From: Bacillota bacterium
GTDB lineage: Bacteria; Bacillota; Sulfobacillia; Sulfobacillales; Sulfobacillaceae
Length of the DNA: 64,000 nt
Assembly (NCBI GenBank): GCA_023511625.1
Contig: JAIMBD010000011.1
Location: 1 to 64,000 of the forward strand
Direction: 5' to 3'
The notes under the pieces were generated by a model that saw nothing but the letters and a program-made list of their open reading frames with translations, was not told the origin of the DNA and ran no database searches. Below are positions 8,160 through 30,877 of the stretch, in pieces; positions within the stretch are counted from its first letter, which is position 1; every line of letters begins with the position of its first letter. A program made the translations under genes and the position numbers.

Positions 8160-9574
8160 CGGCGCCAGGAGCCGCTGACGAGCTGCTTTCGGCGTTGGCC
8201 GATTACGTGACCGGAGAGCTGGTGGCCAGCGCCGAGGCGTATGACACGGCCCGCTGGGTGCTGCTCGACACGTTGGGTTGCGGCATCTTGGCCCTGCGCC
8301 ATCCGGAGTGCTTGAAGCTGTTAGGGCCGACGGTGCCTGGGGTGTTGGTCAGCGGGGGTGCCCGCGTACCTGGGACGGCCTTCGTCCTGGATCCGGTGAC
8401 CGCCGCGTTTAATATCGGGGCAGCCAACCGCTGGTTGGACTTCAACGACACCTGGCTGGCGGCGGAATGGGGACATCCCTCGGATAACCTCGCGGCGCTG
8501 TTGGCCGTGGCGGATTGGCTGGCGCAGCGGGACGGGCAACGCCCGACGGTGGGCGATCTGTTGCGGGCCATGATCCAGGCCCACGAGATCCAAGGGGTGT
8601 TGGCACTCAACACCGCTTTCAATCGGGTGGGGCTCGACCACGTCATCTTGGTCCGCATTGCCTCCACGGCCGTGGCGACCCGGCTTTTAGGGGGAGACCA
8701 CGCGGCGGTGATTCAAGCCGTTTCCAACGCCTTTCTCGACAATGGGCCACTCCGGACCTACCGCCACGGGGCCCATACGGGCTGGCGCAAGTCCTGGGCG
8801 GCAGGCGATGCCGCCGCCCGCGCGGTGCAGCTGGCGCTGTGGACGTTGCGCGGAGAACAAGGCTATCCCCATGCGCTGAGCGACCCCGAGTGGGGATTCT
8901 ACCACGTGGTCCTGCGCGACTGCCCCATGCGCTTGGAACGGCCACTCGGCTGCTACGTGATGGAAAACGTGCTGTTCAAAGTCGCCTATCCGGCAGAGTT
9001 CCACGGCCAGACGGCCGTGGAGGCGGCCATCCGGCTGGCTCCGGCCGTGGCCGGCCGCCTTTCCGAGGTGGCTGAGGTTCGCATCCGCACGCAGGAGTCG
9101 GCTCGGCGGATCATCGACAAGCGCGGGCCCCTGCGCAATCCCGCCGACCGCGACCACTGCCTGCAATACATGGTCGCGGTGGCTTTGCTCGACGGGCGCC
9201 TGGATGCCGACAGCTACAGCGACGAGCGTGCCGCCGATCCGCGAATCGATTGGTTGCGCGAGCGCACGGTGGTCGAGGAAGACCCTCGCTACAGTCGCGA
9301 CTACCTGGATCCCGCAAAGCGATCCATTGCCAACGCCGTCCAGGTGCGGTTTTTAGACGGAAGCGCCACCGAGGCGGTCGAGGTGGAGTACCCTCTCGGT
9401 CACCGCCGTCGGCGCCAGGAGGCGCGCCCGCTCTTGCTGGAGAAGCTTCGGCGCAACCTGGCTACCCGGTTTACGGCCGACCGGGTCGAGGCCATCGTCA
9501 AGACGGGCCTCGACTTGGAGCGGTTGACGACCATGCCCGTCCATCGCTTCATGGACCTGTGGACGCTGCCGTAA
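8156..9574 (+). CDS. prpD: MmgE/PrpD family 2-methylcitrate dehydratase
   Basis: A 472-residue MmgE/PrpD protein, which dehydrates 2-methylcitrate to 2-methyl-cis-aconitate without an iron-sulfur cluster. Diagnostic stretches include LDTLGCGILALRHPE (about 41-55), FNIGAANRWLDFNDTWLAAEWGHPSDN (about 83-109, the substrate-site region) and the YPAEFHGQTAVEA block near residue 280. Length fits PrpD. ATG 8156 overlaps the prpC stop by 4 nt, indicating translational coupling, and prpB follows 26 nt downstream. The family also contains iminodisuccinate epimerase and cis-aconitate decarboxylase, but the operon strongly favours the methylcitrate cycle. The cycle clears propionyl-CoA from odd-chain fatty acids or branched amino acids. 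Confidence 0.9.
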   Translation: MTAPGAADELLSALADYVTGELVASAEAYDTARWVLLDTLGCGILALRHPECLKLLGPTVPGVLVSGGARVPGTAFVLDPVTAAFNIGAANRWLDFNDTWLAAEWGHPSDNLAALLAVADWLAQRDGQRPTVGDLLRAMIQAHEIQGVLALNTAFNRVGLDHVILVRIASTAVATRLLGGDHAAVIQAVSNAFLDNGPLRTYRHGAHTGWRKSWAAGDAAARAVQLALWTLRGEQGYPHALSDPEWGFYHVVLRDCPMRLERPLGCYVMENVLFKVAYPAEFHGQTAVEAAIRLAPAVAGRLSEVAEVRIRTQESARRIIDKRGPLRNPADRDHCLQYMVAVALLDGRLDADSYSDERAADPRIDWLRERTVVEEDPRYSRDYLDPAKRSIANAVQVRFLDGSATEAVEVEYPLGHRRRRQEARPLLLEKLRRNLATRFTADRVEAIVKTGLDLERLTTMPVHRFMDLWTLP

Positions 9575-9600
9575 AGGTCGGCAAGGAGGGGAAGGGCAAG

Positions 9601-10524
9601 ATGATGTGGGAGGAGCCGATTCCGACCCAGCCGGAGTTGGCCGCGCGCTTTCGCGCCTTGGTGGAACAGGGGCGGCCGCTGGTCCTGCCCGGAGCCCACG
9701 ATGGGTTGGCTGCCCTCCTCGCGCGGCGGGCAGGGTTTGAAGCCCTCTATCTGTCAGGGGCGGCCTTTACGGCCAGTCTCGGCCTTCCCGACTTGGGATT
9801 GGTGGCCGGGGAGGAGACGGCGCGGCGGGCGCAAGAGATCGTGGCCGCCGCTGGCCTGCCGCTCTTGGTCGACGTCGACACCGGGTTTGGCGGGCCCATC
9901 AACGTCGTGCGCACCGGTCGCCAAATGGTGGCGGCGGGCGTCGCGGCCGTGCAGGTGGAGGACCAGGAGCTTCCAAAAAAGTGCGGGCACTTAAGCGGCA
10001 AGCGGCTGGTCTCGGCGCGGGAGATGGCCCAGAAGATCGAGGCCTTGCGGCGTACCGCGCCGAGCCTGGTGGTGGTGGCCCGCACCGATGCCGCTGCAGT
10101 GGAGGGCATCGAAGGGGCCATTGCGCGGGCCCGGATCTATCGGGCGGCTGGCGCCGAGATCCTGTTTCCTGAGGCGTTGACCAGCGAGGGGGAGTTTCGG
10201 AGGTTTGCCGAGGCCGTCGGCGGCCCGCTATTGGCCAACATGACCGAATTCGGGCGCACCCCCTACCTCACGGCGGCCCGGCTCTTCGAACTCGGCTATC
10301 AGGTGGTGCTGTTTCCGGTCACGGCCCTGCGGGTAGCGGCGCGCGCCATGGAGGAGGCGTATCGCACGCTGCGCGAAGCGGGCACGCAACGCGCGCTGTT
10401 GAGTCGCATGCAAACGCGAAAAGAACTGTACGAGATCATCGGGTACTTTGACTACGAGGCGCTCGACGAGCGGTTGGCCCGTTCGGAGCTGCCGGAGGTG
10501 GGGGAGGGGGCCACGGAGTCCTGA
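9601..10524 (+). CDS. prpB: methylisocitrate lyase
   Basis: An isocitrate lyase/PEP mutase superfamily enzyme, 307 residues, cleaving 2-methylisocitrate to pyruvate and succinate. The catalytic signature KKCGH (126-130) is intact, with the Mg2+-binding DVDTGFGG at 91-98. The short length, lacking the ICL insertion, separates it from true isocitrate lyase. The start is at the ATG ATG pair (9601/9604) behind AAGGAGG. As third gene after prpC and prpD it completes the core methylcitrate cycle; the aconitase step must be encoded elsewhere. No PrpR-type regulator is adjacent. Confidence 0.93.
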   Translation: MMWEEPIPTQPELAARFRALVEQGRPLVLPGAHDGLAALLARRAGFEALYLSGAAFTASLGLPDLGLVAGEETARRAQEIVAAAGLPLLVDVDTGFGGPINVVRTGRQMVAAGVAAVQVEDQELPKKCGHLSGKRLVSAREMAQKIEALRRTAPSLVVVARTDAAAVEGIEGAIARARIYRAAGAEILFPEALTSEGEFRRFAEAVGGPLLANMTEFGRTPYLTAARLFELGYQVVLFPVTALRVAARAMEEAYRTLREAGTQRALLSRMQTRKELYEIIGYFDYEALDERLARSELPEVGEGATES

Positions 10525-18474: not shown

Positions 18475-18930
18475 GTGTGGCAGTGGTTGCTTCCGGACCT
18501 GAACGAGGCCTTTATGTTGTCCAGCGCAGCGGCCGTCGCTGCGGGCTGGTACTGCATTCGGCACCGGCTGGTGGCCGTGCATCGGCGGTTGATGCTCACC
18601 GGGTCGGTGTTGGGGGCGCTGTTCTTCGTCAGCTATGTGGTAAAAACGCTGACCATCGGGGATACCAGTTTTGGCGGCCCGGCCCATTGGCTACCGTGGT
18701 ATCTGGGATTTTTGCAGGTCCATGTGCTGTTGGCGACGGCGGCGGGCGTTTTGGGGGTGCTCACCTTGCGGTGGGCGCTTAGGGCCAACTTCGGTCGGCA
18801 CCGGCGGGTAGCGCCGTGGACGGCGACCATGTGGTTCGTGGCGGCCGGCACCGGATTGGTGGTGTTTTTGCTCCTGTATGTGGTCTTTCCCCCGGGGAGT
18901 ACCGGATCCGTGGCCCACGCCCTCTTTTAA
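18475..18930 (+). CDS. DUF420 family membrane protein
   Basis: A 151-residue inner-membrane protein with four hydrophobic helices and the conserved DUF420 layout: NEAFMLSSAAAVAAGWYCIR.HRLVAVHRRLML, FFVSYVVKT, YLGFLQVHVLLATAAGVLGVLTLRWAL and FGRHRRVAPWTATMWF. Conserved histidines within or near helices (VHRR, VHVLL, RHRR) are a family hallmark, and DUF420 (YozB/CtaM-like) proteins are linked to cytochrome oxidase assembly in Bacillota. Location 1.7 kb upstream of the cta operon fits this. Start is GTG 18475 after GGAGGA. The leader 18354-18474 holds TTGACA (18399) with no good -10 and a lone TACAAT near 18390. Confidence 0.85.
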   Translation: MWQWLLPDLNEAFMLSSAAAVAAGWYCIRHRLVAVHRRLMLTGSVLGALFFVSYVVKTLTIGDTSFGGPAHWLPWYLGFLQVHVLLATAAGVLGVLTLRWALRANFGRHRRVAPWTATMWFVAAGTGLVVFLLLYVVFPPGSTGSVAHALF

Positions 18931-19017: not shown

Positions 19018-20394
19018 GTGAAACGAGAGGCGGCGCGGGGCTCCAAGGCGGCGCCGGTTCCGTGGGGGACGATCGGGGTGTACCTGGTCGGGGTGTTCAT
19101 CGGCGCGCTGGACAACAACGTGGTGGGGCCGGTTTTCCCTCTGTTGATGCGGGGGTTCGGGGTATCCTTGGCGTGGGTGGGGTGGACGGTGTCCGCCTAC
19201 ACGGTGGCCTATGTCGCCAGCACCGTATTGGCCGGGGCGATGGGCGACCGCTGGGGGCACCAGCGCCTGTTTCGCTGGGGCGTAACGGCCTTCGGCGCCG
19301 CCTCGCTGCTCGCGGCCCTCTCGCGAGTCTACTGGCTCTTCATCGTCGCCCGTCTGATCCAGGGGGCAGGGGCCGGTGCGGTCTATCCCAACGCCCAAGC
19401 CGAGGCGTTGCGCCACTTCCCCCGCGAAAAACAGGGGACGGCCCTGGGGCTGTTCGGGGCTGTCTTCGGGCTTGCGGCCATCCTGGGGCCGGTCGTGGGC
19501 GGCGCCTTGGGCCAGTACCTCGGGTGGCCGGCGGTGTTTTGGGTCAATGTGCCGGTTGTGCTGGTGACGTTGGCTCTGGCTCGGCGCCTGCCGCCGGCCC
19601 GGGTGGAGATCCGCCCCTTGCCGGACCTAGCCGGCGGTCTGGCGTTCTCCGGCCTCATCGCCGGGGCGCTTCTCGCGTTCATGGACAGCGGAGCCGCGCG
19701 CTGGGCGTGGCTTGGGGCGGCCGTGGTCTTGGCGGCCGGGTTTGTCTGGCGACAGCGGCGGGCCCTGGAGCCCTTTTTGGAAACTGCACCCTTGGCCAAC
19801 GGCGCCGGGGTGGCGCTGATGGTGGGTGCGGCCTTGATTGGGTTTGACATGGCATCGGCGGTGTTCGTGCCGACCTTGGGGCAGCGCGAACTCGGGTTTA
19901 CCGTGCTGCAATCGGGCCTGTCGCTGTTGCCGGCGGCCTTAAGCGGCGCCGTCCTGTCCGGCGTAGGCGGCGTCTTGGTCGACCGCCTGGGGCCGCGGCC
20001 GGTCTTGGTGGTGGGGCTGTTGGCGGCGGCGGTGGGCGGGGTCTTGCTTGCGGCTCCACATCTTGACACCGGTCGCTTTCTTTTGGCCATGGCCGTGATG
20101 GGAATGGGTACGGCGTTCACGATGGGCGCCCCCCTCAACCGCATCGGGGTGGCCCTCTTTCGCGAGGACCAGGCCGGGCAGGCGTTGGCCCTGATGGCAC
20201 TGTTTCGCTCGGTGGGCTTGGCGGCAGGTCCCGTCCTTCTTACCCTAGCGGCGGCCGGGCGCGGATTCTCCGGCATGTTTGGGGCCGTGGCGGCGGCTTC
20301 GGCGGTGGGAGCGGTGCTGTTCGCAGCGGTACCGATGGGAGGTGGCGACCGCTCCCAGGGCCGCCGAGGGGAAGGCCCGGCGGCGCTTGGTTGA
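19018..20394 (+). CDS. MFS drug/solute transporter (DHA2-like)
   Basis: A 458-residue major facilitator with about 14 hydrophobic segments. Motif A-like GAMGDRWGHQRLFRWG lies between helices 2 and 3 (about residues 76-91), with ARLIQGAGAGAVYPNAQ and the motif C-type stretch LGPVVGGALGQYLGWPAVFWVN. The motif set LDNNVVGPVFPLL in helix 1 and RLIQGxGAG are typical of proton-driven multidrug exporters of the DHA2 group. Substrate cannot be inferred. GTG 19018 follows AAAGGAGG at 7 nt. It ends directly against the ctaC promoter, whose -35 overlaps its stop codon. Confidence 0.88.
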   Translation: MKREAARGSKAAPVPWGTIGVYLVGVFIGALDNNVVGPVFPLLMRGFGVSLAWVGWTVSAYTVAYVASTVLAGAMGDRWGHQRLFRWGVTAFGAASLLAALSRVYWLFIVARLIQGAGAGAVYPNAQAEALRHFPREKQGTALGLFGAVFGLAAILGPVVGGALGQYLGWPAVFWVNVPVVLVTLALARRLPPARVEIRPLPDLAGGLAFSGLIAGALLAFMDSGAARWAWLGAAVVLAAGFVWRQRRALEPFLETAPLANGAGVALMVGAALIGFDMASAVFVPTLGQRELGFTVLQSGLSLLPAALSGAVLSGVGGVLVDRLGPRPVLVVGLLAAAVGGVLLAAPHLDTGRFLLAMAVMGMGTAFTMGAPLNRIGVALFREDQAGQALALMALFRSVGLAAGPVLLTLAAAGRGFSGMFGAVAAASAVGAVLFAAVPMGGGDRSQGRRGEGPAALG

Positions 20395-20420
20395 CAGGGC
20401 GCTGTCGCCAACGATAGAAT
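20391..20420 (+). promoter_or_regulatory. sigma-A-like promoter of the cytochrome oxidase operon
   Basis: A perfect TTGACA (20391-20396) and TAGAAT (20415-20420) are spaced by 18 nt. The -35 overlaps the MFS stop codon. A leader of about 185 nt precedes ctaC. Confidence 0.75.
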
Positions 20421-20611: not shown

Positions 20612-21655
20612 GTGGCATCGCATCGCGCGCGAAGGATTCGGCGCATCGCACCGTGGGCGGCGGTGATGGCCGCGGCCCTAAGCGGTTGCGGGTTGGTCAG
20701 CGCTCCGCAATCGATGTTGAACCCCGCCGGGCCGGTGGCCCGAGACCAGCTGAACCTCATCTACTCCAGCATGTGGGTGATGGTGCTGGTGTTCGTGGTC
20801 GTGGCGGGAGCGCTCTTGGTGATTCTCCTGCGGTTTCGGTGGAAAGGGCAAAAAGAGTTGCCTCCGCAATGGGAGGGCAGCACCCGCCTCGAGCTGTTGT
20901 GGACCATCGTCCCCTTCATCTTGTTAGCCCTGTTGGCTGTGGGCACCGTCCGCGACTCCTTTGTCCTGGCGGCGCCGTCGGGGAAGAACGTGCTACGCGT
21001 CAACGTGGTTGGCCACCAGTACTGGTGGGCCTTTTCCTATCCCGGCACCAACATCGTGACCGCCAACGAACTGCACATCCCGGTGGGCCAAAAAGTGGAG
21101 CTGGTACTGACCTCGGCCGACGTCATCCACGCCTTCTGGGTGCCGCGCCTGGGCGGCAAGACGGCACTGGTGCCGGGGCGGACCAACATCATGTGGATTG
21201 AGGCCAGCCAACCGGGGCTGTACCGAGGCCAGTGCGCCGAGTTCTGCGGGACGGGACACGCAGACATGCGCCTTTTGGTGGACGCCCAGACTCCGGCCAA
21301 GTTTGCCCAGTGGGAGCAGGAGATGGAGCACCCTGTGGTGCAGCCAACTACGGCCCTGGCCAAAGAGGGCGAGCAGCTGTTCGCCACCGAAAGCTGCAGT
21401 AGCTGCCACACCATCGGCGGCACGCGCTACGCCGGGGTGGTGGGGCCCAATCTGACCAACTTGGCCCAGCGCCCCATGATCGCCGGCAACCTTTTGCCCA
21501 ATACGCCCCAGAATTTGGCCGCCTGGTTGAAAGATCCGCAGGCAGTCAAGCCCGGGGCCTTGATGCCCAACCTGCACCTGTCGCCGGACAAGATCAAGGC
21601 CTTGGTCGCCTTCCTGGAGAGCTTGAAGACACCGGCTCCGACCGGTTCCGTGTAG
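20612..21655 (+). CDS. ctaC: cytochrome c oxidase subunit II with fused cytochrome c (caa3 type)
   Basis: Subunit II of the haem-copper oxidase, 347 residues. A lipoprotein signal (LSGC, lipid Cys 26) is followed by two membrane helices (about 53-73 and 95-112). The cupredoxin domain carries the complete CuA site: H173, C208, E210, C212, H216 and M219. A C-terminal cytochrome c domain has CSSCH (262-266) and a later MPNLHLS Met ligand. Domain order matches Bacillus caa3 CtaC, which takes electrons from cytochrome c and delivers them to subunit I. Start is GTG 20612; its ribosome site is weak. It heads ctaC-D-E-F-B. Confidence 0.95.
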   Translation: MASHRARRIRRIAPWAAVMAAALSGCGLVSAPQSMLNPAGPVARDQLNLIYSSMWVMVLVFVVVAGALLVILLRFRWKGQKELPPQWEGSTRLELLWTIVPFILLALLAVGTVRDSFVLAAPSGKNVLRVNVVGHQYWWAFSYPGTNIVTANELHIPVGQKVELVLTSADVIHAFWVPRLGGKTALVPGRTNIMWIEASQPGLYRGQCAEFCGTGHADMRLLVDAQTPAKFAQWEQEMEHPVVQPTTALAKEGEQLFATESCSSCHTIGGTRYAGVVGPNLTNLAQRPMIAGNLLPNTPQNLAAWLKDPQAVKPGALMPNLHLSPDKIKALVAFLESLKTPAPTGSV

Positions 21656-21683: not shown

Positions 21684-23579
21684 ATGGCAACGCATTCGGA
21701 GCGGGTCTGGCACGGCGGGCACGCGCCATCCGCAGTGGCCGAAGAGCCGCGCGGCTTGTGGAGCTGGCTCACGACGGTCGACCACAAGCGCATCGGCCAG
21801 ATGTACATGGGGGCGGGGTTGTTCTTCTTCCTCCTGGCCGGCATCGAGGCCTTCCTCATCCGGCTGCAACTGGCTCGACCGGACAACCACGTCGTCAGCG
21901 CCGCGCTATTCAACCAGCTCTTCACCATGCACGGCGTGACCATGGTGTTTCTGGCCGGCATGCCGCTTTTGATCGGGTTCATCAACCTGGTGGTGCCGAT
22001 TCAGATCGGGGCGCGGGACGTGGCCTTCCCGCGATTGAACGCGCTGAGCCTGTGGCTGTTCATCGGCGGGGGGCTGATGCTCTACACCTCCTGGTTTTTC
22101 GGGGGGGCACCAGACGCCGGGTGGTTCAACTACGTGCCCATCTCGGGGATCCAGTACAGTCCGGGACCGGGGGTCGACTTCTACGACATCGGGTTGCAGA
22201 TCTCCGGCATCGGCACCCTGATGACCGGCATCAATTTCCTTACCACCATCATCAACCTGCGGGCTCCGGGGATGAGCTGGTTGCGGCTGCCGATGTTTGT
22301 GTGGGCGACCTTTGTGACTTCGTTGCTGATCGTGTTCGCCTTCCCGCCGTTGACCGTCGACCTGTTCCTGCAGACTTTCGACCGCCTCTTCGGCGCGCAC
22401 TTCTTCTCGGTGGCCGCCGGCGGCAGCCCGCTGTTGTGGGCCAACTTGTTCTGGGTGTTTGGGCATCCGGAGGTCTACATCCTGATCATGCCGGCCTTCG
22501 GCATCATTTCCGAAGTGGTGCCGGTGATGTCCCGCCGGCCGCTATTCGGCTACACCACCATGGTGTTGTCGGTCATGGCCATCGGGTTCCTCTCCTTTAT
22601 GGTCTGGGTGCACCACATGTTCGACCTCGGGTACGGCCCTTGGGTCAACTCCATCTTCGCCTTAAGTTCGATGCTGATCGCCGTGCCTACTGGGGTAAAG
22701 ATCTTCAACTGGCTGACCACCATGTGGGGCGGTCAGGTGCGGATGAACACCGCCATGCACTGGGTCATGGGATTCCTCATCACCTTCGTCATCGGGGGGA
22801 TGAGCGGAGTGATGCTGGCGCTGGCCCCTGCCGACCTGCAGTTCAACAACTCCTATTTCGTGGTGGCGCACTTCCACTACGTCCTCATCGGAGGCACCCT
22901 GTTTGCCATATTCGCCGGCATGTACTATTGGTTTCCCAAGTACACCGGGCGCTTTCTCAACGAGACGTTGGGCAAATGGCAGTTCTGGCTGGTATTCATT
23001 GGGTTCAACGTCACCTTCTTCCCCATGCATTTTTTGGGGCTGATGGGGATGCCGCGCCGCATCTACACCTACGCGCCGCATCTTGGGTTGACGTTCTGGA
23101 ACAGCGTCTCTACCGACGGCGTGTTCATTCTCTCGGCGGGCATGGTGATCGGCGCCATCAACGTGCTGTGGTCGTACGGGCACGGCCAGCTCGCGTCGGC
23201 GGACCCGTGGGACGGCCGCACGCTCGAGTGGGCGATTCCTTCGCCGCCGCCGGCGTATAACTTTGCCTACATCCCACAGGTCCGGGGACTCGACGCCTGG
23301 TGGGTGGAGAAGCGCTACGGCAACGGCCGGATGTTGCCGGCCCCCGAGGCGCATCACGGTCCGCCCGGCACCATTCACATGCCGACGTCGACGCCGATGC
23401 CGCTCTTTCTCGCGCTGTCCATCGTGATTGCCGGTTATGGCCTCATCTTGCACTCGCTGATTTTGGCCATCATCGGATTTGCCTTCGTGGCCATCGGCAT
23501 CCACCGGTCGATGTTCACCGTCGACCCCGGTATGTACGTGCGGCCCCACGAGGTCGAGGAGGTGCGCGCAGATGGCTGA
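21684..23579 (+). CDS. ctaD: cytochrome c oxidase subunit I
   Basis: The catalytic subunit (631 residues) that reduces oxygen to water and pumps protons. Haem and CuB ligands are in TMHGVTM (low-spin haem), WVFGHPEVYI (CuB His plus the cross-linked Tyr), VWVHHMF (two CuB His) and VAHFHYVL (high-spin and low-spin haem His). The GHPEVY glutamate marks the A1 subfamily D-channel. A C-terminal extension of about 100 residues with two further hydrophobic segments is typical of Bacillus-type CtaD. ATG 21684 follows AAAGGAGG. Its stop overlaps ctaE by 8 nt. Confidence 0.96.
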   Translation: MATHSERVWHGGHAPSAVAEEPRGLWSWLTTVDHKRIGQMYMGAGLFFFLLAGIEAFLIRLQLARPDNHVVSAALFNQLFTMHGVTMVFLAGMPLLIGFINLVVPIQIGARDVAFPRLNALSLWLFIGGGLMLYTSWFFGGAPDAGWFNYVPISGIQYSPGPGVDFYDIGLQISGIGTLMTGINFLTTIINLRAPGMSWLRLPMFVWATFVTSLLIVFAFPPLTVDLFLQTFDRLFGAHFFSVAAGGSPLLWANLFWVFGHPEVYILIMPAFGIISEVVPVMSRRPLFGYTTMVLSVMAIGFLSFMVWVHHMFDLGYGPWVNSIFALSSMLIAVPTGVKIFNWLTTMWGGQVRMNTAMHWVMGFLITFVIGGMSGVMLALAPADLQFNNSYFVVAHFHYVLIGGTLFAIFAGMYYWFPKYTGRFLNETLGKWQFWLVFIGFNVTFFPMHFLGLMGMPRRIYTYAPHLGLTFWNSVSTDGVFILSAGMVIGAINVLWSYGHGQLASADPWDGRTLEWAIPSPPPAYNFAYIPQVRGLDAWWVEKRYGNGRMLPAPEAHHGPPGTIHMPTSTPMPLFLALSIVIAGYGLILHSLILAIIGFAFVAIGIHRSMFTVDPGMYVRPHEVEEVRADG

Positions 23580-24186
23580 GATGAATCCGCACCTCACGAC
23601 CCATCCGGTGGAAACGGAGATGCCGGCAGCGCCCGACAATTCGGTGTTGGGGGTGTGGATCTGGCTGTCGGCCGAAAGCCTCTTCTTTGCCTCCTTAATC
23701 GCGACCTTTTTACTCCTGCACAACCAGACCAACGGGGGTCCGGGTCTGGGTAGGCTGATCGACCTGCAGTTGACCTTTATCGCGACGGTGACCCTTTTGA
23801 GCAGTAGTCTCACCATGGCGTTGGGGTATGCGCAGGTGCTCAAAGGGAACCTCGGCGGTTTTCGGTTCTGGCTGGTGGTCACGGCGCTGTTGGGGCTGGG
23901 ATTTGCCGGCATGCAGGCGTTCGAGTTCCATCACCTTTACACGCAAGGGTTTTCGTTGTCGTCGTCTCCGGCAGGGTCGGCGTTCTTTACGCTGACCGGC
24001 TTTCACGGGCTGCACGTACTGTTTGGCGCCTTCTGGCTGATTTCCCTGTTGGCCTTCTCGTTTAAGAAGGAATTTGTCGAGGAGGCTGCGGTCAAGGTCA
24101 AGGTGCTGGGTTTGTACTGGCACTTCGTCGACGTGGTGTGGGTCATCATCTTCACCGTGGTGTACTTGATGGGAAAGGTGGCATAA
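23572..24186 (+). CDS. ctaE: cytochrome c oxidase subunit III
   Basis: A 204-residue integral membrane subunit with five helices, the short CtaE form of Bacillota. Recognisable pieces are WIWLSAESLFFASLIATF at the first helix (conserved Glu), QAFEFHHL, FFTLTGFHGLHVLFGAFW (conserved FHG-H motif) and YWHFVDVVWVIIFTVVYL at the C-terminus. It stabilises the oxidase and supports proton uptake. ATG 23572 lies inside the ctaD end, preceded by GAGGAGG, giving an 8-nt overlap and translational coupling. Confidence 0.95.
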   Translation: MAEMNPHLTTHPVETEMPAAPDNSVLGVWIWLSAESLFFASLIATFLLLHNQTNGGPGLGRLIDLQLTFIATVTLLSSSLTMALGYAQVLKGNLGGFRFWLVVTALLGLGFAGMQAFEFHHLYTQGFSLSSSPAGSAFFTLTGFHGLHVLFGAFWLISLLAFSFKKEFVEEAAVKVKVLGLYWHFVDVVWVIIFTVVYLMGKVA

Positions 24187-24189
24187 GGC

Positions 24190-24807
24190 ATGGCCTCGGG
24201 CGTCGAACACAAGGCCCCCCGCGAGGGGGGCCACACCGGGATGTACGTGGCGGTAGGGGTGGGGTCGTTAGTCCTGACCGCTATCGCCTTTTACGTGGTG
24301 TTCACCCAGGCCGCCTTTCGCCATGTGGTCATTCCGGTGATTCTGGTCCTGGCCGCCATCCAGGTCTTTCTGCAGACCTGGTTGTTTATGCACCTGAACA
24401 CCGGGCGGCGCAGTTATCAAACGTTCTTCGCGTATGGGGTCTTTCTGGCGCTGGTGGTGGTCTTGGGTTCGGTGCAGGTCATGACCAGCTACAAGCCCCC
24501 GATGCCGGTACAAAAGCCGCTCACGCACGCGCAGCTTTTGGCCTTGGGGCAGCAGATTGTGAGCCAACAATGCGTGGCCTGCCATACCGTCAACGGGCAG
24601 GGCGCCACCATCGGGCCCAACTTGAACCTGGTGATGGAGGGCAAGGTCAACGTGGTCCCCGGCGGCCAGCCGACCAATCCGGCGTGGCTGGCCCGGTGGA
24701 TCAGCGACCCGGCGGCGGTGTGGAGCGGCGCCAAGATGCCGGACCTGAACCTGTCCTCGCAACAGGTGCAAGGAGTGGTGGATTACCTGACCAGCTCCGT
24801 GAAGTAG
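24190..24807 (+). CDS. ctaF: cytochrome c oxidase subunit IV fused to a cytochrome c domain
   Basis: The first about 105 residues are a CtaF/COX4-prokaryotic subunit: three membrane helices (about 18-40, 46-68 and 79-100) with IQVFLQTWLFMHLN. Unlike standard CtaF (about 110 residues) the protein continues for 100 residues into an extracytoplasmic mono-haem cytochrome c. That domain has CVACH (128-132), IGPNLNLVMEG and the Met ligand in AKMPDLNLS (M183). The domain resembles the one on CtaC, suggesting duplication. It would give the oxidase two tethered cytochromes. ATG 24190 starts 3 nt after ctaE; AAGGTGG serves as ribosome site. Confidence 0.9.
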   Translation: MASGVEHKAPREGGHTGMYVAVGVGSLVLTAIAFYVVFTQAAFRHVVIPVILVLAAIQVFLQTWLFMHLNTGRRSYQTFFAYGVFLALVVVLGSVQVMTSYKPPMPVQKPLTHAQLLALGQQIVSQQCVACHTVNGQGATIGPNLNLVMEGKVNVVPGGQPTNPAWLARWISDPAAVWSGAKMPDLNLSSQQVQGVVDYLTSSVK

Positions 24808-24850
24808 GGGCGCGGAGGGATGGCCAGGCCGTGGTAGGGAGGTGAGGATC

Positions 24851-25792
24851 GTGGCATCGGCCAAAGGAGAGCCGGCGGCGACGGCGGCCGTGGGCCTGAA
24901 GGCGGCGGCGCTGGCCGGGCAGCGTACCCGCATCGCGGACTATGTGGCGCTGACCAAGCCGCGGATCATGGCCTTGTTGTTGATTACGGCGTTCTGTGGC
25001 ATGGTGGTCGCGGCGCACGGCTGGCCGGCGTGGGGGCTGGCCGTCCAGACCCTGGGTGGACTCGCGCTGTCGGTCGGTGGCGCCCACGCCGTCAACATGT
25101 GGTTCGACGCCGACATCGACGGGCTCATGGACCGCACCCGGGCCCGGCCCATTCCCGCGGGGCGGATGGCGCCCGAAAAGGCGCTGTGGATGGGCGTCGG
25201 CCTTGGGATCATCTCCTTTATTTGGCTTTGGACGCGAGTCAATCCTTGGGCCGCGGGGCTGGCTTTTTGCGGCTATTTGTACTACGTGCTGGTCTATACC
25301 ATGTGGTTGAAGCGCACCACCCCTCAGAACATCGTTATCGGCGGGGGGGCAGGGGCCTTCCCGCCGCTGGTGGGATGGGCGGCCGTCACGGGCCACTTGG
25401 GATGGGCCGCGTGGGTGCTGTTCGGTATCGTGTTCCTATGGACTCCGCCGCATTTCTGGGCGCTGGCGCTGTATCGGCGGCGCGAGTACGCGCGGGCGGC
25501 CGTGCCGATGCTGCCGGTAACCCACGGACCGCGCGCCACCAAGGGCCAGATGATCGGCTACGCGGCAGCGTTGCTGCCGGTCTCATGGCTTCTGGCCCGC
25601 GTCGCGCCGGTGGGGTGGCTTTACTTGGTCGTGGCGGCAACGGCGGGGTTGGCGCTGCTCGGCGCCTGCATGAGGCTCTGGTTTGAGCCGGATGACCGCG
25701 ACCAGTGGGCGCGCCGCACGTTCTTTCTCTCGCTCTGGTATCTTACGGCCGTCTTCGGGGCCATGGTGGCCGACGTCGTCCTAAGAGCCTAG
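24851..25792 (+). CDS. ctaB: protoheme IX farnesyltransferase (haem O synthase)
   Basis: A UbiA-superfamily prenyltransferase making haem O from protohaem and farnesyl diphosphate for the oxidase. It has 313 residues and about nine helices. The prenyl-diphosphate-binding motif is NMWFDADIDGLMDRT (N82, D86, D90, D94), with the family block WTPPHFWALALYRRREYARAAVPMLPVT later. GTG 24851 is preferred because GGGAGGTGA lies 5 nt upstream; an in-frame GTG at 24842 would overlap that site. Last gene of the operon, followed by a terminator. Haem A synthase (CtaA) is not in the window. Confidence 0.95.
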   Translation: MASAKGEPAATAAVGLKAAALAGQRTRIADYVALTKPRIMALLLITAFCGMVVAAHGWPAWGLAVQTLGGLALSVGGAHAVNMWFDADIDGLMDRTRARPIPAGRMAPEKALWMGVGLGIISFIWLWTRVNPWAAGLAFCGYLYYVLVYTMWLKRTTPQNIVIGGGAGAFPPLVGWAAVTGHLGWAAWVLFGIVFLWTPPHFWALALYRRREYARAAVPMLPVTHGPRATKGQMIGYAAALLPVSWLLARVAPVGWLYLVVAATAGLALLGACMRLWFEPDDRDQWARRTFFLSLWYLTAVFGAMVADVVLRA

Positions 25793-28470: not shown

Positions 28471-28830
28471 GTGGCACTCGTGCGGTTGATGTGGTGGAGC
28501 TGGCGGTGGCAGCGGGCGCGGCACGTTGCGATGCGGCAAAAGGCCCGGCGGCGCACGTTGGCGCTGCTCCTCGGGGCGGCCGGCCTGTTGGGGGAAGCCC
28601 CGGAGGACGTGGCCCGGGTGCATGCGCTCTGGCTTGGCGCCGGGCTTGCTGCTCGCAGCGCCTTGCGTTCCCGGAGTCCTCGTCCGGGCCCAGAGGGAGT
28701 CCGCGCCCTCCGCTGGCTTAAGGTGCTGGGAGAAGGGCAGGCCGTGCCGGTGGCCACGGCCCTTTTGGCCTGGCGGGCGATTGCGCAAGGGGCCGTGCCC
28801 TCGCGCCGGGCTCGTCCGAAGCAGGCGTGA
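28471..28830 (+). CDS. 119-residue basic protein, function unknown
   Basis: A very basic Arg/Ala/Leu-rich protein with no signal peptide: MALVRLMWWSWRWQRARHVAMRQKARRRTLALLLG at the N-terminus, then predicted helices (PEDVARVHALWLGAGLAARSAL, VRALRWLKVLGE, AVPVATALLAWRAIAQGAVP). I do not recognise a family. It is taken as real because GTG 28471 has a GAGGAGA ribosome site and its stop overlaps the start of the PQQ-cytochrome gene (GTGA), which argues for coupled translation. It would be the first gene of that electron-transfer operon. The composition is also what random GC-rich DNA gives, hence moderate confidence. Confidence 0.5.
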   Translation: MALVRLMWWSWRWQRARHVAMRQKARRRTLALLLGAAGLLGEAPEDVARVHALWLGAGLAARSALRSRSPRPGPEGVRALRWLKVLGEGQAVPVATALLAWRAIAQGAVPSRRARPKQA

Positions 28831-30527
28831 GGGCTTTGAGGGGGCGGACCGCCCGCTTGGGGGGATGGGGACTGGCGGCGGCGGTCGGCGCTTTGGCGTT
28901 TTGGGCCGGGCGGTGGGGGCCGCCGGTTCCCTCCAACCCCCGATGGGGACCGGCCCGCTTCGTGGCCTACGCCGCGACGGCTCGGCACGAGGCGGTGTTT
29001 CCGGCAGCTGGGCAGGCGCCGGTTTCGTGGACGTTCGATGCGCCGGGGGCCTTGCAGCAAGCGTCGGTGGCCCACGGTGTCCTCTATGTCGGCGGAGACG
29101 GGGGAACGACGGCCTCGGACCAGGTCTATGCGCTCGATGCCCGCACCGGTCAGCTGCTCTGGCATCGGCCGCTCGGCAACCTGGTGATGACCACGCCGGT
29201 GGTGGCAGAGGGGATGGTATTCGTCGGCACCGGTAATCAAGCCTTCAGTCCAGCCGAGGCGCGCCGGGAGGCGCATCTTCGGACGACAGGCGTGGTACGA
29301 GGCACCGGGCCCAGCGCCTGGGTGGCGCTGGACGCCAACACCGGCGCCGTGGTCTGGACGCATCCCACGCGCGGGGAGGACATGCCCTCGCCGGTGTACC
29401 ACGATGGCGTTCTGTACGGCGTCAATGGCAGCGGGGACGTCATCGCCTTGTGGGCGGCCACCGGGACGGTGCTGTGGCGCTTGCGGATTCCCTCCTACGT
29501 CAGCATGTCGTCTCCCGCCCTCGCCGGGCACCTCCTGGTGTTTGCCGGAGCCCATCCTTATCGGCTGTACGCCGTCGACCTCGACACCCGGCGGCTCGCG
29601 TGGAGTCGCCGGCTTCCGGGAACCTTTGCCGGAGCCGACGACTGCTCGGTGGCTGTGGGCGGCGGCCGCGTCTTCCTCGAGGCCACCGCCGGCACTGCGC
29701 GCCACCCGGTCTCCACGGTTTTTGCCTTTAATCTGGCAGGGCGTCGGTTGTGGCGGCGGGCACTCGGCACGGGGACCTTGGTGCGCGATATCGAAGTCGG
29801 GGCACCGACGGTGGTTGGAGGACGGGTCTTCCTGGGCAGCCCCATCACGCGGCACATCTACGCCCTGAATGCCGCCACGGGACAGGTCGAGTGGACGTTT
29901 GCGGCGGCGGGACCGGTTTCGGCCTCGCCGGCGGTGGTGGGCCATCGGCTGTACGTGGGCGACGGCACTGGCTTGCTTTACGCCCTCGACGCCGACAACG
30001 GCCGGCTTGAGGACACGCTCGACGTGGGCCAGCGGATGGCCGCCGACTACCCCTTGGTGGTGGGCCGTACCCTGTACCAGCCCACGGAAGGGGGGCAGAT
30101 GTGGTCGATCGCCCTGACGGCTTCCGGAGGCTTTGTCCATCCGGCCCTCTCGCTGCCGGTGCCGAAAGGCCCCTTGGGGGCCGAAGTAGTCGCGGGGGCC
30201 CGAGTCTTTGCCGATTCCACGTGGTCTCCCCAACACCTATCCTGCGCGAGCTGCCACCAAGCCGGGGGGCTGGCCCGGGGATTTCGCGACGGCCGGCTGG
30301 TGCCTGCTCTGGTGGGGGCAGCGGCCCGCTACCCGGAAAAGACCCCCCAAGGCCTGCGCACGCTCGACGATCAGATCCGGGACTGCCTTTCGGCCATGGG
30401 GGTCCATGGAGTCCGAGACGACGACCCCCGCATGAAGGCCTTGAACTTTTATTTGCACTGGTTGGCCAGCGGGTTTCCGGAGCGGCCGGGCACTGTGCGC
30501 GCGGCCACCAGCAACGGGGGATGTTGA
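28827..30527 (+). CDS. PQQ-type beta-propeller protein fused to a cytochrome c domain
   Basis: A 566-residue exported or anchored protein. A signal/anchor helix (about 10-30) is followed by an eight-blade PQQ-dehydrogenase-like beta-propeller (about 60-440) with repeated YALDARTGQLLWHRPLG-type blades (also VALDANTGAVVWTHP, YALNAATGQVEWTF and YALDADNGRLEDTL). A C-terminal mono-haem domain follows: CASCH (473-477), RYPEKTP, TLDDQIRDCLSAM and DPRMKALNFYLHWLASG. That tail resembles one TsdA/SoxA-type haem domain. It is probably a periplasmic-side dehydrogenase or electron carrier; whether PQQ is bound is unknown, since the Trp-ring and Ca-site residues were not confirmed. GTG 28827 overlaps the previous stop; a small cytochrome gene follows. 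Confidence 0.85.
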   Translation: MRALRGRTARLGGWGLAAAVGALAFWAGRWGPPVPSNPRWGPARFVAYAATARHEAVFPAAGQAPVSWTFDAPGALQQASVAHGVLYVGGDGGTTASDQVYALDARTGQLLWHRPLGNLVMTTPVVAEGMVFVGTGNQAFSPAEARREAHLRTTGVVRGTGPSAWVALDANTGAVVWTHPTRGEDMPSPVYHDGVLYGVNGSGDVIALWAATGTVLWRLRIPSYVSMSSPALAGHLLVFAGAHPYRLYAVDLDTRRLAWSRRLPGTFAGADDCSVAVGGGRVFLEATAGTARHPVSTVFAFNLAGRRLWRRALGTGTLVRDIEVGAPTVVGGRVFLGSPITRHIYALNAATGQVEWTFAAAGPVSASPAVVGHRLYVGDGTGLLYALDADNGRLEDTLDVGQRMAADYPLVVGRTLYQPTEGGQMWSIALTASGGFVHPALSLPVPKGPLGAEVVAGARVFADSTWSPQHLSCASCHQAGGLARGFRDGRLVPALVGAAARYPEKTPQGLRTLDDQIRDCLSAMGVHGVRDDDPRMKALNFYLHWLASGFPERPGTVRAATSNGGC

Positions 30528-30529
30528 GC

Positions 30530-30877
30530 ATGCGGCGCGTGTGGTGGCTTGCCCTGGTGGCGGGGATGGGGTGGGCAGCAGGGCGGGCTTGGCCCGAGAG
30601 CCCTGCCTTGCCCCCAGCAGTGGCCCGCGGGGCTGCCCTGTATCAGCGGGACTGTGCCGCCTGCCACGGAGTGGCCGGCAGCGGAGCGCCGGGAGCCCCG
30701 GCCCTGGACGGGCCGCGCCTGGCTCGCGACTATCCCTCGCGCCAGGCCTTGGCCCGGTTTATTGCCGAGAACATGCCGGCCAGCGCCCCAGGCACGCTCT
30801 CTCCGACCATGGCCGAGGACCTGGCTCGATACCTGCGCCGGCTCAACCCGGCCCAGGGGGCGCCCTCCCAACTCTAG
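30530..30877 (+). CDS. small exported cytochrome c
   Basis: A 115-residue protein: signal peptide (MRRVWWLALVAGMGWAAGRAWP, about 1-22), then a mono-haem class I cytochrome c domain with RGAALYQRDCAACHGVAGSG (CAACH), and the Met ligand probably in ENMPASAPGTLS. The final YLRRLNP helix closes the fold. ATG 30530 starts 2 nt after the PQQ-cytochrome stop, with GGGGGA upstream. It is the natural electron acceptor for that protein and may feed the caa3 oxidase; this is inference from operon order. Confidence 0.85.
   Translation: MRRVWWLALVAGMGWAAGRAWPESPALPPAVARGAALYQRDCAACHGVAGSGAPGAPALDGPRLARDYPSRQALARFIAENMPASAPGTLSPTMAEDLARYLRRLNPAQGAPSQL

Follow-up and report, generated by a model that had tools for sequence, protein, structure and literature searches.

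Does subunit IV of a caa3-type oxidase take part in electron transfer? The question is raised by a gene at positions 24190-24807 of the window (the whole 64,000-nucleotide stretch of Bacillota DNA analyzed here), in which a CtaF-type protein runs on into a cytochrome c domain. To our knowledge, subunit IV of prokaryotic oxidases has no catalytic part, and a conserved haem there would give it an electron-transfer role. We consider it probable that the protein is a caa3 oxidase subunit IV to which an extracytoplasmic haem c domain has been added, covalently tethered and with some role as an electron relay.

The gene is the fourth in a row, ctaC-ctaD-ctaE-ctaF-ctaB, all on the + strand, as is the promoter match given below. 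The first gene, ctaC (subunit II, 20612-21655), matches Pfam COX2_TM, COX2 and Cytochrom_C, and exceeds the cut-off of NCBIfam CoxB. Its product has a lipoprotein-like start, a CuA domain and, as the sequence-only reading had stated, a C-terminal cytochrome c (Cytochrom_C at residues 250-339, with GALMP and with CSSCH as the single CxxCH of the protein). The CuA ligands are intact (HAFWVP and CAEFCGTGHADM, providing the H and CxExCxxxHxxM pattern), and the same is true of all 20 CtaC proteins inspected. The ctaD gene (subunit I of the haem-copper oxidase, 21684-23579) encodes 631 aa with a Pfam COX1 match of 531 bits, an NCBIfam CtaD_CoxA match over the cut-off and the motif GHPEVY. The ctaE gene (subunit III, 23572-24186) starts with the ATG at 23572 and overlaps the end of ctaD; its COX3 match of 71.5 bits was obtained on the longer ORF 23479-24186. 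The row closes with ctaB (24842-25792), which is over the NCBIfam cut-off for heme o synthase. With its CuA site, subunit II cytochrome and subunit I motifs, the operon is predicted to encode a caa3-type (A-family) oxidase. A sigma-70-like promoter match 5' of ctaC (20391-20420) agrees at 11 of 12 positions, and is weak because about one such match is expected per region by chance. Upstream of the operon lies a gene for a DUF420 protein (18475-18930); a DUF420-like ancestor has been suggested for haem A synthase in an excerpt of PMC8239418.

The fusion ORF starts with ATG, has exact bounds and encodes 205 aa. Pfam COX4_pro matches residues 22-91 (24253-24462; 44.8 bits against a cut-off of 28.9), a part with three hydrophobic peaks and with helices at about residues 20-38, 43-61 and 79-97. 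A tether of residues 98-117 (24481-24540, from the domain bounds and helix ends) leads to the second cytochrome c domain of the operon, matched by Cytochrom_C at residues 118-202 (24541-24795; 47.5 bits against a cut-off of 21.3). The haem ligands are those of a class-I cytochrome c (CxxCH and a distal Met), with CVACH at residues 128-132 (24571-24585) and Met183 in GAKMP (24736-24738). The three helices, the cytochrome and both of its ligand motifs had been recognized from the letters alone, and only the domain length of 100 residues needs correction, to about 85 in Pfam. The NCBIfam subunit IV equivalogs all score below their cut-offs on the fusion protein (CoxD_Bacillus 41.9/117.85, QoxD 43.7/85.6 and CyoD 43.5/81.45 bits), and the subunit IV ('CtaF') assignment is that of Pfam alone. 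An AlphaFold model (mean pLDDT 52.9) was too poor to serve for a fold search.

A three-helix topology with the C-terminus outside is known from subunit IV of the bo3 oxidase (CyoD). In the fusion, KAPREGG precedes helix 1 and GRR lies between helices 2 and 3, a pattern of positive loop charges that is consistent with an N-in, C-out topology. By analogy, we infer that the C-terminal domain, placed after three helices, lies outside the membrane, where haem c is attached and where it could reach the donor side. Helix 3 and CxxCH are separated by 26-33 residues in eight members of the window's order, by 58 in genome G076 and by 70 in G090 (a value of 63 for G117 counts from helix 2, as the script missed the third helix, and is kept outside the 26-70 range). 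The tethers of G076 and G090 are Pro/Ser-rich and variable, and tether length and variability thus speak more for a mobile domain than for a rigid one that would act as a wire.

To assess how widespread this architecture is, we searched the 154 genomes of the class with a profile of six fusions and, separately, with COX4_pro. The latter gave 121 matches in 81 genomes, 25 of them in frames of at least 175 aa; cytochrome c is present in the same frame in eight of these and absent from the other 17, all of which were opened. Three fusions (G007, G029 and G030) were missed by the Pfam model and were found with the window protein and the profile. Ultimately, an intact fusion was found in 11 genomes of the class: G000, G001, G007, G029 and G030 in the window's family, G117, G118, G122 and G123 in a sister family, and G076 and G090 in two other families. 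The fusion is 85% identical in a second genome of the genus and about 40-63% identical in others. A scan of contigs returned only two relatives, which correspond to G001 and G123; a near relative is the metagenome-assembled 'Bacillota bacterium HOT.CON.99'. The phylum sample (398 genomes) contained 13 genomes with any match at 1e-9 and no additional fusion, and in the plasmid collection none of the 89 matching records covers 80% of the query.

All nine caa3 operons with a complete ctaF found in the window's order (42 genomes) are fused. A tenth, in G119, runs off its contig directly after helix 3; loss of the domain was considered for this genome and rejected, because the contig stops inside the gene. 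In all eight further cta operons inspected in the class, subunit IV is plain (91-117 aa), and one of these operons (G087) has a CtaC that lacks the cytochrome as well. Stand-alone subunit IVs of the window's family were rejected as un-fused orthologues in all nine stretches opened (L042-L049 and L052), where they belong to a different operon with genes closest to a second, quinol-oxidase-like operon of the source genome. The fusion is lineage-typical: it is common to all caa3 operons with a complete ctaF found in the window's order, and occurs in two outlying families. The sequence-only reading would have set the architecture aside as merely lineage-typical if close relatives and standard caa3 oxidases all had it; the close relatives with this oxidase do all share it, whereas standard caa3 oxidases do not.

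One may ask whether the gene is an artefact of annotation, such as a read-through of two genes, or a neutral fusion with a functionless domain. We regard this as very improbable and largely refuted, because a stop-free single frame occurs in 11 genomes, the ligands are conserved and the domain is under purifying selection. Both cysteines, the histidine and the methionine are invariant in an alignment of six fusion proteins, and CxxCH and MP are kept in all 11 intact fusions. Purifying selection was measured in three genome pairs, two further pairs being saturated in dS. The dN/dS values for the subunit IV cytochrome, the CtaC cytochrome and CtaD were 0.144, 0.115 and 0.059 for G000 versus G001, 0.057, 0.031 and 0.025 for G122 versus G123, and 0.347, 0.211 and 0.170 for G118 versus G117. 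The subunit IV cytochrome domain, with values close to those of its CtaC counterpart, is maintained, slightly less tightly than the core. Decayed solitary copies in G033 (L040, about 9363-9931) and G031 (L041, about 8781-9175) would speak for such a reading, but no other part of the oxidase operon accompanies them: the 19 kb stretches around them gave no match to ctaC (beyond the shared cytochrome part), ctaD or ctaE. The fusion is neither chance nor an assembly error.

The sequence-only reading had proposed a tree of the two cytochrome domains as a test for duplication. In our main tree (48 cytochrome c domains), the 11 subunit IV domains and one free cytochrome of G076 form a single clade (98/94), and the CtaC domains of the order and of G076 form their own clade (99/95); a first tree of 38 rows has the same split with weaker support (92/89). 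Recent copying of the neighboring CtaC cytochrome is thus not supported as the source, and the subunit IV domains are about 33-42% identical to the CtaC domain of the window. The subunit IV domain arose once, on the 98/94 support. The tree neither establishes nor rejects a nearest common source shared with the CtaC domains (AU p 0.497); CtaC-like domains, NorC-like domains or second domains from dihaem proteins are candidates for the wider source.

The CtaD tree joins 11 of the 12 carriers of the fusion, counting G119, at 89/77 and leaves G090 outside; among the 48 cytochrome domains, the one from the CtaC of G090 falls with that of G103, which has a plain subunit IV. The fusion would therefore either be older and have been lost elsewhere, or have been acquired by G090 through transfer. 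The COX4 part alone does not reject a grouping of all fused genes in one clade (AU p 0.095). The free cytochrome of G076 (L080:1168-2487 on contig C81, a 439-aa ORF with its true start probably further in) ends in one helix, a long tether rich in Pro, Ser and Ala, and the cytochrome. It is sister to the subunit IV domain of the same genome (95/99 in the 38-row tree, 100/99 in the 48-domain tree). Its nesting among the subunit IV domains makes copying from ctaF more likely than the reverse, and such a near copy as a separate membrane-anchored cytochrome suggests that the module can serve as a carrier on its own.

The genome that the window comes from (2.59 Mb in 40 contigs) has five COX1 genes and two COX4_pro genes. 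The second COX4_pro is a normal subunit IV of 118 aa in the neighboring operon (contig positions 66.5-70.5 kb), which we read as encoding a quinol-oxidase-like enzyme because its subunit II lacks the CuA cysteines. Three further CtaD genes (L093:5884-7821 on contig C3, L094:5258-7138 on C38 and L095:5526-7682 on C14) are 67-73% identical to the window's CtaD, largely keep the motifs inspected and group with the CtaD of G000 and G001. No genes for subunits II, III or IV were found near them, and these orphan catalytic subunits may share the other subunits of the caa3 operon. Directly after one of them, L094:7636-10259 (contig C38) holds genes that resemble a cytochrome bd oxidase, as judged by eye. 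For haem c maturation, ResB was looked for in this genome and not found; there are PF01578 matches, one of them within a 705-aa frame, which point to a Ccm-type or CcsA-type system, and a re-scan of the partial translation of one match gave no Pfam family. The genome has only eight Cytochrom_C matches and possesses QcrABC, with a Rieske protein, a b6-type cytochrome b and a QcrC of 241 aa (three helices and a cytochrome c). At 28827-30877 the window also encodes a PQQ-type beta-propeller protein that bears a CxxCH domain and, after it (about 30518-30877), a small cytochrome c; this pair, close to the oxidase, may be an electron donor module.

Of the 42 genomes of the order, 12 gave a strong cytochrome b match (E <= 1e-45): each of the 10 that have the caa3 operon, counting G119, and two (G006 and G124) of the 32 that lack it. 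Some of these 32 genomes are incomplete (59-71%). The co-occurrence is significant by genome (Fisher 4.5e-8) and by genus (6/6 versus 1/9, p 0.0014), both values being uncorrected for ancestry. Strong cytochrome b is also absent from G031 and G033, the two genomes with a decayed fusion, one of which is only 71% complete. Because cytochrome b tracks the operon and is not strongly matched in the decayed-fusion genomes, we propose that the domain relays electrons between the bc complex and the oxidase. This co-occurrence is not specific to the subunit IV domain, since any caa3 oxidase is expected alongside a bc complex.

In the proposed relay, the flexibly linked subunit IV domain would replace free cytochrome c: it would take electrons from the bc complex, either from QcrC or from small anchored cytochromes, and its haem would pass them to the CtaC cytochrome and then to CuA. 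In structures of A-type oxidases, subunit IV adjoins subunits I and III and is distant from subunit II and CuA. Transfer to CuA would thus need a long reach, which counts against the relay. We put forward tentatively the idea of a relay of two haems across two subunits: subunit IV would be a permanently attached cytochrome c, docking with the bc complex and supplying the haem of subunit II, and no diffusible carrier would be needed; the G076 copy would then show the carrier moving between bound and free forms.

A rival is a parallel route, in which the subunit IV haem serves a different donor and feeds CuA alongside the CtaC cytochrome. Such donors could be the genome's small lipoprotein-like cytochromes or the propeller-cytochrome pair at 28827-30877. 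We think this second entry point unlikely: it gains from the several other c-type cytochromes in the genome, the flexible tether and the propeller-cytochrome genes adjoining the oxidase, but we know of no partner gene that follows the fusion more closely than the bc complex, the only partner compared across genomes. Within a relay role, we rank transfer in series (subunit IV haem to subunit II haem to CuA) somewhat above a separate entry point. A domain that chiefly anchors the oxidase to the bc complex in a supercomplex, its haem having little role in turnover, would suit the co-occurrence of the two and the location on a subunit that has no catalytic center. A pure tether would need neither the haem ligands kept in all 11 intact fusions nor a low dN/dS, so we judge this docking role quite improbable.

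A conserved haem on subunit IV would offer a natural test of how oxidases capture complex III electrons in Gram-positive cells, which lack a periplasm. Cytochromes that are free, lipid-anchored, fused to subunit II and now fused to subunit IV become comparable. The fusion is one more case of recurrent cytochrome tethering, rather than a new principle or a new kind of system.

The closest known system is the caa3 oxidase of Bacillus subtilis (CtaCDEF) and Thermus thermophilus (2YEV), which shares the ctaCDEF order and a CuA subunit II with a C-terminal cytochrome c. The domain on the Thermus subunit II is also the best PDB match of the cytochrome on the fusion's subunit IV, although standard caa3 subunit IVs have no haem domain and that of the window does. 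QcrC of the Bacillota bc complex, which the source genome also has, similarly carries a cytochrome c after three helices, but it belongs to a different complex and has no COX4_pro match. The helices of QcrC resemble subunit IV of the b6f complex. In the cNOR operon of Aminobacter, a COX4-family gene adjoins a gene for an anchored cytochrome c, but these are two separate genes (presumably NorF and NorC) of a nitric oxide reductase.

The Desulfovibrio vulgaris oxidase with a dihaem subunit II is one that we take to be the cc(o/b)o3 enzyme. That standard caa3 oxidases carry only the CtaC cytochrome, as the sequence-only reading has it, is broadly right, with the exception of some (Shewanella, Desulfovibrio) whose subunit II bears two haem c groups according to excerpts of PMC3899249. 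Like the window's system, these oxidases (D. vulgaris, Shewanella oneidensis CoxB) are described there as A-type enzymes with two built-in haem c. Their haems lie in tandem on subunit II and are mutually alike (61% in Shewanella; PMC3899249, same excerpts), whereas the window's system distributes its haems over two subunits, with a single haem c on subunit II. The literature retrieved, part of it in excerpt, describes no COX4-cytochrome c fusion in these bacteria. The nearest case is in the accessible part of PMC8756737, where Table A3 lists two ORFs with COX IV and a 'C1' cytochrome (PKB63614.1 and PIQ26724.1); by description, the only basis of comparison, they have the same pair of domain names in one ORF as the fusion, and in that part they are listed only within a survey of cytochromes around Chloroflexi nitrite reductases. 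Among the oxidase subunit fusions already described are COX1-COX4 and COX2-cytochrome c (PMC4013037, in excerpt). Against these systems, caa3 enzymes with two haems c were already known, and what sets the window's caa3 oxidase apart is the predicted haem c on subunit IV.
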